In this document: positions 4,176 to 7,492 of the stretch, piece by piece
Layout of the letters: every line of letters begins with the position of its first letter
Numbering within the stretch: the first letter of the stretch is position 1
Virus record (IMG/VR): IMGVR_UViG_3300045806_000020
Location: 1-29,022 of that record
Length of the DNA stretch: 29,022 nucleotides
From: a virus
Strand: one strand, 5' to 3'
Notes under the pieces: generated by a model
What the model saw: only the letters and a program-made list of their open reading frames with translations
Told to the model about the DNA's origin: nothing
Databases searched by the model: none
Made by a program: the position numbers and the translations under genes

Positions 4176-4331
4176 ATGAAACAGAAAAACATCATCAAGG
4201 AAATGTACAAGGCATGTGTCAATCACGATCTGAACAAACAGAAAGAATTGTACATGGAAGAATTGCGCAAAATCTTCAAGCGCAAAGAATCTGGAAAGCC
4301 GTTTAGTCCGAAATGGACTGTTGTCCAGTAA
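4176..4331 (+). CDS. Small hypothetical protein, 51 residues
   Basis: Start chosen at 4176 because AAGGA (4164-4168) lies seven bases upstream. The frame is open from 4143 but that ATG has no ribosome binding site. The product is basic and strongly helical ([20 protein letters not shown], then [16 protein letters not shown]), ending SPKWTVVQ. No family was recognised. The stop codon lies just before the tmRNA acceptor piece, so the two may share a transcript. Confidence 0.55.
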
Positions 4332-4398
4332 TAATGGTAGTAAACCTTTTGTAAGAAAGGTATGGAACACGCCGGGGCAGTACCGGCCCGGTCCACCA

Positions 4399-4447
4399 TA
4401 AGCATATCAGTACATACGGTCTATATAACGACAGGTGTGCTTATGAT
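4399..4447 (+). other. Intervening sequence of the permuted pre-tmRNA
   Basis: This segment joins the CCA end of the acceptor piece to the mature 5' end of the coding piece. Its flanks form an eight-base-pair stem (CATAAGCA 4397-4404 with TGCTTATG 4438-4445) that stacks on the acceptor helix. It would be removed during processing, by RNase P at the 4448 side and by 3' nucleases after CCA. The boundaries are inferred from the pairing. Confidence 0.8.
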
Positions 4448-4533
4448 GGGCCGGAACTAGTTTCGACTCCGTAATGAGTAAGATGAAGAGGCTACCCGAC
4501 ATATCGAGTCGTAAAAAGTAAATCAAAATAAAT

Positions 4534-4566
4534 GCAAATGAAAGCGTTTACAGTCTAGCTGCATAA
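4534..4566 (+). other. tmRNA tag reading frame, ANESVYSLAA
   Basis: Ten codons from GCA (4534) to GCA (4561), then TAA. The tag begins Ala-Asn-Glu and ends Leu-Ala-Ala, like known proteolysis tags such as E. coli ANDENYALAA. The stop codon lies in a small hairpin (TAGCT 4556-4560 with AGCTA 4566-4570), as in helix 5 of tmRNA. The Leu-Ala-Ala end should be recognised by ClpXP-type proteases, which is inference from known tags. Confidence 0.9.
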
Positions 4567-4633
4567 GCTAACTTGAGGTTTCGTTGACTGTCCTCATCAT
4601 CCAATCAGTCAACATCATTTAACTAAAGAGACT

Positions 4634-5113
4634 ATGACAAAGAAATTCATAATAGCCATCTTCGCATTTTTTATTCTCACTAACCCCCAAGTAACAGACA
4701 CTCTAAACATAACGGACGTAAATTTCACCAAAGAACTCTTTTGCTTGTCATCGAATATTTACCATGAATCTTCTGGTGAGTCCATTGAAGGTAAGAAAGC
4801 CATTGCACAGATAGTCATCAATCGCACACAGGACGCACATTTTCCTTCTGGTATATGTGAAGTTGTGTATGAAAAGCATGGGAAAGTGCATCAATTTAGC
4901 TGGACATCCAATCCAAACAAAAAGATCACAGACAATGTTACGTGGCAGGAATGTTTGTATATTGCACGTCAAGCCCTAACGGGACACACGCAACATAAAA
5001 AGCTAGAGCAGACCAATGCGCTGTTTTATCATGCGGATTATGTTCACCCAAAGTGGAATAAGAAACACATAATCACCAAGATAGGTAGACACATCTTCTA
5101 CACAAAGTTGTAG
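4634..5113 (+). CDS. SleB-type cell-wall hydrolase (probable endolysin)
   Basis: 159 residues. The N-terminus is a signal or membrane-anchor segment (Lys-Lys, then a hydrophobic stretch, residues 3-17), so export by Sec is likely. The rest matches the SleB/CwlJ hydrolase family (Hydrolase_2): LSSNIYHESSGES (39-50, with Glu45 the probable catalytic acid), AIAQIVINR, FPSGICEVVYE, HQFSW (86-90) and ALFYHADYVHPKW (129-141). These enzymes act on the peptidoglycan glycan strand. As a single-domain exported hydrolase it is the best endolysin candidate in the window. It starts 20 bases after the last tmRNA pairing, with AAAGAG as ribosome binding site, and may share its transcript. Confidence 0.85.
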   Translation: MTKKFIIAIFAFFILTNPQVTDTLNITDVNFTKELFCLSSNIYHESSGESIEGKKAIAQIVINRTQDAHFPSGICEVVYEKHGKVHQFSWTSNPNKKITDNVTWQECLYIARQALTGHTQHKKLEQTNALFYHADYVHPKWNKKHIITKIGRHIFYTKL

Positions 5114-5142
5114 TTGACATTAGTCATGTGAAGTGATATAAT
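5114..5142 (+). promoter_or_regulatory. Consensus sigma-70 promoter
   Basis: Perfect -35 TTGACA (5114-5119) and perfect -10 TATAAT (5137-5142), separated by exactly 17 bases. The predicted start near 5149 gives a leader of about 22 bases containing GGAG (5161-5164) before the gp33 gene. It should be read by unmodified host RNA polymerase and so drive gp33, gp59 and following genes early or in mid infection. Confidence 0.9.
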
Positions 5143-5171: not shown

Positions 5172-5393
5172 ATTCCTACAAAAGACGAAATTACTGAATT
5201 TAGCATTGCTGTCGAAGAACTAGCTGACCTAAAAGATATCACATGTATAGAGGCTGTGGTTGAACATTGTGAATCCACAGGAATGGAAATTGAAGTGGCA
5301 GCAACGCTAGTGAGTACACATCTAAAGGCCCGTATCAAAGAAGAGGCACAATCCGTCAACCTTATTAAGAAGACCGAAAAACTCCCAATATGA
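5172..5393 (+). CDS. 33: gp33-like late transcription coactivator, ATT start
   Basis: 73 residues. The open frame begins after a TAA at 5139-5141 and has no ATG, GTG or TTG before the conserved region. ATT at 5172, seven bases after a GGAG ribosome binding site, is the best start. The sequence follows T4 gp33: a helical segment (EFSIAVEELADLKDITCIEA), then a second helix (HLKARIKEEAQSVNLI), ending EKLPI. gp33 bridges RNA polymerase and the sliding clamp to activate late promoters. The C-terminus is shorter than T4's clamp-binding tail. Overlap with gp59 by four bases (ATGA) and the gene order 33-59-32 support the call. Because it lacks a standard start, gene callers will probably miss it. Confidence 0.8.
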   Translation: MPTKDEITEFSIAVEELADLKDITCIEAVVEHCESTGMEIEVAATLVSTHLKARIKEEAQSVNLIKKTEKLPI

Positions 5394-5992
5394 GCGATAA
5401 CAATGGTTATGTGTGTTTCATGGAATACAATGCAATCAAAACGCATTTCAATTCAAAGAAATATGATTACCACAAATACCACGGTAAAACGAATGTCCCA
5501 AAAGAGACATTCCTAAGGCGCAAAGATCGATACTCATTCATCCGTATGGCTAAGAAATATAGCCTGGAAGATGCCAAATCATTTTTCATAGCTAATCTTG
5601 TATATCGTAGTAGTTCATGGGTTGGTGATATGCTCACGCCAGAAGGTGAAGATGCTTTTAAAATGTGGCAAAAAAACAACCAGAGCTTGCAATATCTGTT
5701 CAAGTCTGATATAATGAAACTTACCGAGAAATATGAAAACCCTTTGGTTATGCTACAGACAGTGGACGGCCAACTTCCGCCATTACTGAAAGATGTGATG
5801 TGTAAAGATATCATGATCGAAACATTGACTATCATGAACGATATAATGGGATTCTTCAATGCTTGGGATAAGACCATATCAGACGATATCATTTGGCCTG
5901 AATATAGAATGAAATGTGTGAAATATGCACCATTCATAGAATATGATAAGTCAAAATTTAAACAAATCATAAAGGAACAGTGTAGTGTATAA
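5390..5992 (+). CDS. 59: gp59-like loader of replicative helicase
   Basis: 200 residues, close to T4 gp59 (217). Family features are visible: FNSKKYDYHKYHGKTNV, FLRRKDRYSFIRMAKKY, then DAKSFFIANLVYRSSSWVGD, which aligns with the T4 segment around FISNLVANQDAWIGD. The C-terminal half is helical (ETLTIMNDIMGFFNAWDK), as expected. gp59 binds fork DNA and gp32 and loads the gp41 helicase. It sits between gp33 and gp32 genes as in T4, with only the HAD gene inserted before gp32. Translation is coupled to gp33 by the ATGA overlap. Confidence 0.85.
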   Translation: MSDNNGYVCFMEYNAIKTHFNSKKYDYHKYHGKTNVPKETFLRRKDRYSFIRMAKKYSLEDAKSFFIANLVYRSSSWVGDMLTPEGEDAFKMWQKNNQSLQYLFKSDIMKLTEKYENPLVMLQTVDGQLPPLLKDVMCKDIMIETLTIMNDIMGFFNAWDKTISDDIIWPEYRMKCVKYAPFIEYDKSKFKQIIKEQCSV

Positions 5993-6562: not shown

Positions 6563-7492
6563 ATGTCATTCGCAAATCTGAAACGTCAATCCCTTGGCAA
6601 CTTGAGCAAAATTACACAAGCAGTTGAAGCCCTCAGCAAACCTGCATACTCCAACAACAAAGATGATTTCTGGTTGGCGGAACTCGATAAGGCAGGTAAC
6701 GGTTCGGCGGTCATTCGCTTTCTACCCACACCGGCAGTAGATGAAAAAACAAATCCAGACGCAGCACTTCCATGGGCCAAAGTGTTCCAACATGCATTCA
6801 AGGGGCCGAGCGGTAAATGGATGATTGATACATGCCCAACAACTCTGGGCAATGGTACTGAATGTCCAGTCTGTGATAATAATTCGGTTCTCTGGAATTC
6901 AGGTCTGGAGTCGGACAAAGAATTTGTGCGCAAGAACACCAAGCGTAAGGTGCACTATATTTCAAATATCTATATTGTCAACGACCCCAAGCACCCAGAA
7001 AACAATGGAACGGTTCGTTTGTTTAAGTACAATGAATCTATTTTCCAGAAGTTGATGGATGCTATTAAACCAAAGTTTGAAGATGAAGCCCCATTCGATC
7101 CGTTTGATTTATTTACTGGTGCAGACTTCAAGCTGCGCATCTACAAGGATGGTGAATACTCGAACTTCGACAAGTGCGAATTCGCATCATGTGGGCCTGT
7201 TCTTGATGATGAAGCAGAAATGGAAAAAGTATATAACCAAGAGCAATCAATCTTGAAGTATCTCGACCCAGCCAACATCAAGTCATATGATGAATTGAAG
7301 ACTCGTATGGAAAAAACCTTGGGACTAAACGGCGACGGAACAAAGGCCAAGCGTACCACAGTGGAAACCCTCAAGGAAGCCGCAGAAACGGCTAAGGTCA
7401 GCGGTAAGCGCCCTCAGACGCCAGCATCAGAACGCACACTCCCAGCCGACGATGACGACGATATGGACTACTTCCGCAAACTCGCGGACTAG
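6563..7492 (+). CDS. 32: gp32-like single-stranded DNA-binding protein
   Basis: 309 residues, near T4 gp32 (301). The N-terminal basic segment (residues 1-16, ANLKRQSLGNLSK) corresponds to the cooperativity region that carries the LAST motif. The core has the zinc site His77, Cys91, Cys101, Cys104, whose spacing closely follows T4 His64, Cys77, Cys87, Cys90. Aromatic and basic residues for ssDNA contact surround it (VHYISNIYIVNDP, TGADFKLRIYKDG). The C-terminal tail is acidic (DDDDDMDYF) as needed for protein partners. It coats ssDNA in replication and recombination and recruits gp59. AAGGAAAA provides the ribosome binding site, and a strong terminator follows. Confidence 0.95.
   Translation: MSFANLKRQSLGNLSKITQAVEALSKPAYSNNKDDFWLAELDKAGNGSAVIRFLPTPAVDEKTNPDAALPWAKVFQHAFKGPSGKWMIDTCPTTLGNGTECPVCDNNSVLWNSGLESDKEFVRKNTKRKVHYISNIYIVNDPKHPENNGTVRLFKYNESIFQKLMDAIKPKFEDEAPFDPFDLFTGADFKLRIYKDGEYSNFDKCEFASCGPVLDDEAEMEKVYNQEQSILKYLDPANIKSYDELKTRMEKTLGLNGDGTKAKRTTVETLKEAAETAKVSGKRPQTPASERTLPADDDDDMDYFRKLAD

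Follow-up and report, generated by a model that had tools for sequence, protein, structure and literature searches.

The locus studied here raises a two-part question: whether a phage carries a genuine tmRNA gene in two pieces, and whether such a gene would serve the phage. tmRNA releases ribosomes that have become stuck and tags incomplete proteins for destruction. The window (the whole stretch of DNA that was analysed, 29,022 nucleotides) is a 29-kb genome fragment from an uncultured virus, in which a sequence-only reading had proposed a circularly permuted tmRNA. Our analysis indicates that the locus is very probably a genuine circularly permuted (two-piece) tmRNA (ssrA) gene with a role in trans-translation, and that the T4-like aquatic phage carrying it is a relative of HTVC008M, Mosig and Melnitz. 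It is a real new case of a phage-borne split tmRNA, an arrangement already known in marine relatives since 2022.

Identity and anatomy of the tmRNA

The checks proposed with the sequence-only reading included a search with tmRNA covariance models and the permuted mode of ARAGORN. The Rfam covariance search returned a full-length match to RF04321 (tmRNA_permuted) at 4336–4566 on the plus strand, spanning model positions 1–213 with 111.3 bits (E = 3.2e-21; cut-off, 47 bits), and RF01849 (alpha_tmRNA), the top scorer among the older clan models, gave 73.8 bits (cut-off, 50 bits). As a background, RF04321 was run on 274 genomes sampled from a single bacterial class (taken to be Gammaproteobacteria from its centre genome), in which one genome contained a clear permuted gene (141 bits) and the remainder scored at most 49.3 bits. 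By comparison, 174 of 190 genomes sampled from another class (Alphaproteobacteria, the class again judged from the centre genome) exceeded the cut-off, those listed scoring 127–166 bits. The score of the window locus is far above chance. ARAGORN did not call the gene at default settings, but at a 90% score threshold it reported a permuted tmRNA at 4305–4657 with the tag ANESVYSLAA.

The elements that the sequence-only reading had named are all present (Table 1). The CCA-ended acceptor piece lies upstream of the strand with which it pairs, and the acceptor helix GGGCCGG/CCGGTCC forms seven of seven pairs in the helix parse, the third being G-U, the alanine identity pair G3–U70. P2 was verified by direct reading, and TTCGAC, the GTAAAAAG segment exactly 15 bases ahead of the resume codon, the tag with its stop and the downstream pseudoknot were likewise found where they had been placed. 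Only the 5′ limit of the proposed span, 4340, was slightly late, the model match beginning at 4336. The T arm, acceptor strand and CCA together read GCCGGGGCAGTACCGGCCCGGTCCACCA (4371–4398), and the tag is encoded by GCA AAT GAA AGC GTT TAC AGT CTA GCT GCA TAA. In the pseudoknot, stem S1 (TGAGG/CCTCA) occupies 4574–4578/4592–4596 and stem S2 (GTTGACTG/CAGTCAAC) occupies 4583–4590/4606–4613; its score was reached by none of 60 shuffled sequences. The ends of the spacer are complementary (TAAGCATA.. / ..TGTGCTTATGAT) and lengthen the acceptor helix in the predicted fold, and the spacer table lists no open reading frame in 4399–4447. A promoter for the tmRNA is only weakly indicated: the sigma-70-like match upstream is no better than shuffles predict, and no T4-type late promoter motif was found beside the gene.

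Table 1. Features of the tmRNA locus and its downstream neighbours (window coordinates)
Feature	Position	Strand	Basis
Acceptor (3′) piece, P2 3′-side strands to CCA	4336–4398	+	RF04321 alignment; ARAGORN tmRNAp at 90% threshold
P2, TATGGA with TCCGTA	4361–4366 with 4468–4473	+	One G-U among pairs; direct reading
T arm GCCGG/GGCAGTA/CCGGC	4371–4387	+	5/5 T pairs; loop GGCAGTA of alphaproteobacterial type
Acceptor 3′ strand CCGGTCC	4388–4394	+	Helix parse
A + encoded CCA	4395–4398	+	
Spacer (intervening sequence), 49 nt, presumed excised	4399–4447	+	Fold; spacer table
Coding (5′) piece	4448–4566	+	RF04321; helix parse
Acceptor 5′ strand GGGCCGG	4448–4454	+	
TTCGAC	4462–4467	+	
GTAAAAAG	4511–4518	+	Exactly 15 bases, then resume codon GCA at 4534
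Tag frame ANESVYSLAA + TAA	4534–4566 (tag 4534–4563, stop 4564–4566)	+	ARAGORN; direct translation
H-type pseudoknot 3′ of tag	4574–4613	+	Pseudoknot search versus shuffles; architecture recurs in relatives
Cell-wall hydrolase (SleB/Hydrolase_2) lysin, conserved neighbour	4634–5113	+	Pfam PF07486; phrog_938; synteny
gp33-like late transcription coactivator	5172–5393	+	phrog_254, E 2e-13
gp59 helicase loader, T4-like marker	5390–5992	+	Pfam T4_Gp59_N/C; phrog_269
gp32 single-stranded DNA-binding protein, T4-like marker	6563–7492	+	phrog_224, E 6.5e-91

Gene neighbourhood and inheritance

Besides gp59, gp33, gp32 and the SleB-like lysin, the contig encodes PhoH, a tail tube protein, a DNA end protector, a head closure protein, and baseplate hub and wedge proteins including gp25 and gp6. 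Judged from gp32, gp59, gp33, gp6, gp25 and PhoH, the contig belongs to a T4-like phage, in agreement with the sequence-only reading. Ranked by the bit score of gp6, HTVC008M (38.8% identity), Melnitz and Mosig are the closest isolates.

Three features of the neighbouring genes were also recorded. The apparent start of the gp33 homologue at 5172–5174 is ATT, in contrast to the ATG that eight relatives carry at the aligned site, and reflects either an unusual start codon or an error in sequencing. At 5114–5142, just 5′ of gp33–gp59, is a perfect sigma-70-type promoter (TTGACA-17-TATAAT), its second hexamer preceded by TG. The PhoH gene (1–1323) contains an intein-like insertion with LAGLIDADG homing-endonuclease matches.

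Relatives were fetched with gp32 and gp4 (head closure) as bait; gp59 as a query retrieved none. Permuted tmRNAs above the cut-off were found in 15 of 50 gp32-bait records and in 17 of 50 further records, the latter including the four isolates HTVC008M, Mosig, Melnitz and BUCT-ZZ01. When the window was searched against INPHARED at the DNA level, no close sequence was found, the single weak match being to the tmRNA itself (BUCT-ZZ01). A 14-mer acceptor pattern gave more than 100 unselected matches in viral contigs and was set aside, and an attempt to assign a host by the exact pattern GGCAGTACC + GGTCCACCA, searched genome-wide, failed because the 28 matches were scattered.

The window tmRNA lies 0.8 kb upstream of gp59. 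In 11 of the 14 gp32-bait contigs with a full-length tmRNA, the gene is on the same strand as gp59 and at most about 3 kb upstream of it, often with the SleB lysin between the two, and in Melnitz the distance is 0.6 kb. In the HTVC008M record, which is 147284 bases long and opens with gp59, the tmRNA is at 145161–145370 and would thus lie about 2 kb upstream of gp59 if the record is circular. The position is kept among relatives whose neighbouring proteins are roughly 30–50% identical. Given this constancy, the gene looks inherited rather than recently captured, and the gene order suggests that it has been passed on mainly within the phage lineage. A tree of tRNA-domain sequences, in which beta-, cyano- and SAR11 bacterial sequences were scarce or absent and which was used solely for grouping with phage copies, placed the window copy with other phage copies, on a long branch (0.75) and with weak support. 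The proposal in the sequence-only reading that the phage acquired a host-type gene may therefore hold for a remote event; synteny in 11 of 14 contigs and the grouping with phage copies speak against a recent one. An SmpB gene was found in none of 16 phage records (the window and 15 related records), so host SmpB is presumably used.

Comparison of phage copies and their spacers

The sequence-only reading knew of no well-described permuted tmRNA in a T4-like phage, a statement overtaken by a 2022 account of the two-piece tmRNA of the T4-like myophage Melnitz and its relatives (PMC9004378). Among phage genomes, that study counted 53 two-piece tmRNA structures, of which 50 were aquatic; of 47 clustered contigs, 17 had a permuted tmRNA. 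In 2025, RF04321 was built and 79 unique phage tmRNA sequences were listed (PMC11915505). Melnitz (a Methylophilales phage) and HTVC008M and Mosig (Pelagibacter phages) are, like the source of the window, T4-like myophages with a permuted tmRNA, and together with BUCT-ZZ01 they score 90–113 bits with RF04321. Compared with Melnitz, HTVC008M and Mosig, the window has the acceptor GGGCCGG/CCGGTCC and TTTCGAC. The tags differ (ANESVYSLAA in the window, ANDNYVPVDYALAA in Melnitz and ANFNEYALAA in HTVC008M), and the glutamine riboswitch that directly follows the Melnitz tmRNA (L279:1886–1934), as published, has no counterpart in the window in the Rfam search.

The window copy combines traits of two groups. 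Its T loop GGCAGTA and the AACTAG segment ahead of TTCGAC resemble the alphaproteobacterial two-piece tmRNA (RF01849), and sampled bacterial T loops are mostly GGCGGTA or GGCAGTA. However, it covers only positions 40–272 of the 355 in RF01849, and the sampled bacterial copies mostly carry CGCCTCC-type acceptors and AGGATCGAC, unlike the window. Its 10-residue tag and 3′ pseudoknot, unlike alpha_tmRNA, resemble a beta-type phage set (RF01850 matches among L172–L178 and L284–L290). Members of that set share TTTCGAC, the 10-amino-acid tag, the post-tag pseudoknot, the same gene neighbours and, in many cases, a GGGCCnG acceptor with the window, but have a tRNA-like T loop (TTCGACT or TTCGATT) that the window lacks.

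In each of 31 phage sequences, that of the window among them, all seven positions of the acceptor helix are paired, a count biased towards structure by the helix parse, which demanded at least six of seven pairs; the variety of pair types is independent of this filter. Pair 3 is invariably G-U, and compensatory changes occur at pairs 4–6: pair 4 is GC or CG, pair 5 is GC, CG, AT, TA or GT, and pair 6 is TA, CG, AT or GC. T arms are imperfect in a few relatives (L183 and L296). The post-tag pseudoknot keeps its architecture with a wholly changed second stem (GGTAGGTT/AACCTACC in L177, TTGGTGATTGA/TCAATCACCAA in L286 and TGCCTTGT/ACAAGGCA in L185). The tags of relatives are similar in kind (ANDEKFALAA, ANDERFALAA, ANEENFALAA, ANFNEYALAA and others), most ending in ALAA or a near variant. 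Although the sequences compared are not independent events, this variety is greater than one would look for in a passenger gene.

Spacers in the parsed phage set are 18–284 nt long; shorter still is that of L185:1501–1672, about 7 nt by eye (CCACCA/CAGACAC/GGGGGTG). In L292, the spacer contains a complete 86-codon gene for a Cys-rich protein matching Pfam PF03692 (CxxCxxCC) with 26.3 bits (cut-off, 23). This gene was found in 12 viral contigs, that of the query included, and the permuted tmRNA model spans it in 10 of 11 contigs scanned, some of them near-duplicates (L292 and L398–L408); in L398, for example, the nested gene occupies 1501–1758 within a tmRNA at 1428–1896. Comparison of the L398 and L407 copies gave 23 synonymous and 14 non-synonymous codon differences (dN 0.12, dS about 2.0), a ratio that marks the nested gene as being under purifying selection. 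A second case is a 60-codon open reading frame in the L174 spacer (L410:957–1136), the TGA stop of which lies at the very end of the spacer. Its relatives L411–L417 gave no tmRNA match within the contig stretches scanned, which suggests that the gene moved into the L174 spacer. As our limited literature search found no description of a protein gene inside a tmRNA spacer, a gene nested in this discarded segment may be a new finding.

Probable ribosome rescue and its alternatives

Ribosome rescue, which the sequence-only reading had proposed as the use of the gene during infection, is the most likely function; from established tmRNA biology we infer this role, its benefit to the phage, and the expression, processing, charging and tagging that it requires. 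In the folded transcript, the piece with the CCA, which ends at 4398, would pair with the downstream coding piece, which begins at 4448. Excision of the 49-nt spacer by tRNA-processing enzymes of the host would then leave two RNAs joined through the acceptor helix and P2. The alanyl-tRNA synthetase of the host would charge the tmRNA by way of G3–U70, and host SmpB would bring it to ribosomes stalled on broken messages. On reading ANESVYSLAA and stopping, the ribosome would be freed and the fragment marked for host tail-specific proteolysis, so that ribosomes might be kept free while host mRNA is destroyed.

It is very unlikely that the window copy is a decaying passenger, in the sense of a captured tmRNA that has kept its fold but lost its function. 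Its long branch in the tRNA-domain tree, its absence from the default ARAGORN calls and the imperfect T arms of L183 and L296 would fit decay. By contrast, the acceptor, T-arm and pseudoknot pairs of the window are all intact, as are its CCA, G3–U70, resume codon, LAA tag end and stop, and the compensatory changes across relatives and the fixed gene position also argue for a working gene. Scarcely credible is a fragment of host chromosome or a prophage attachment remnant: ssrA is a frequent integration target (PMC9004378, PMC11915505), but the tmRNA lies between phage genes and in the same place in related contigs and the isolate Melnitz, and no integrase was found among the contig proteins tested. 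We rejected this explanation on the basis of synteny.

A tmRNA acting mainly against the host, either by competing with host tmRNA or by hastening through its own tag the breakdown of host proteins for amino acids, as proposed for Melnitz (PMC9004378), seems unlikely, even though the lack of a phage SmpB means that host SmpB must be shared and a phage tmRNA without a coding sequence (DS6A) inhibits endogenous tmRNA in E. coli (PMC11915505). The complete tag of the window, with its canonical LAA end and stop, favours full trans-translation over a decoy, and rescue and tagging are compatible with each other. The authors of the Melnitz study suggested that the tmRNA keeps up the hijacked machinery or tags host proteins so that they can be recycled (PMC9004378); either could apply to the window tmRNA.

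With ribosome rescue as the preferred reading, the nested genes seen in relatives are the basis of a broader and more doubtful proposal, which we offer tentatively: the split tmRNA would be a long-standing, phage-owned rescue system whose spacer also offers small protein genes a docking site, the primary transcript could act as messenger when uncut (as in L398–L408) or as tmRNA when cut, and the window would represent the empty-spacer form. If confirmed, protein genes within a tmRNA spacer would represent an unusual arrangement of genes.

The window tmRNA is a well-supported added case of phage-borne trans-translation, and its relatives show the gene to be a stable part of a T4-like aquatic lineage and not a stray capture. 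In view of that stability, the benefit that lytic phages draw from a ribosome rescue of their own becomes a reasonable question, and with HTVC008M and Melnitz available as cultured relatives it can be tested at the bench.
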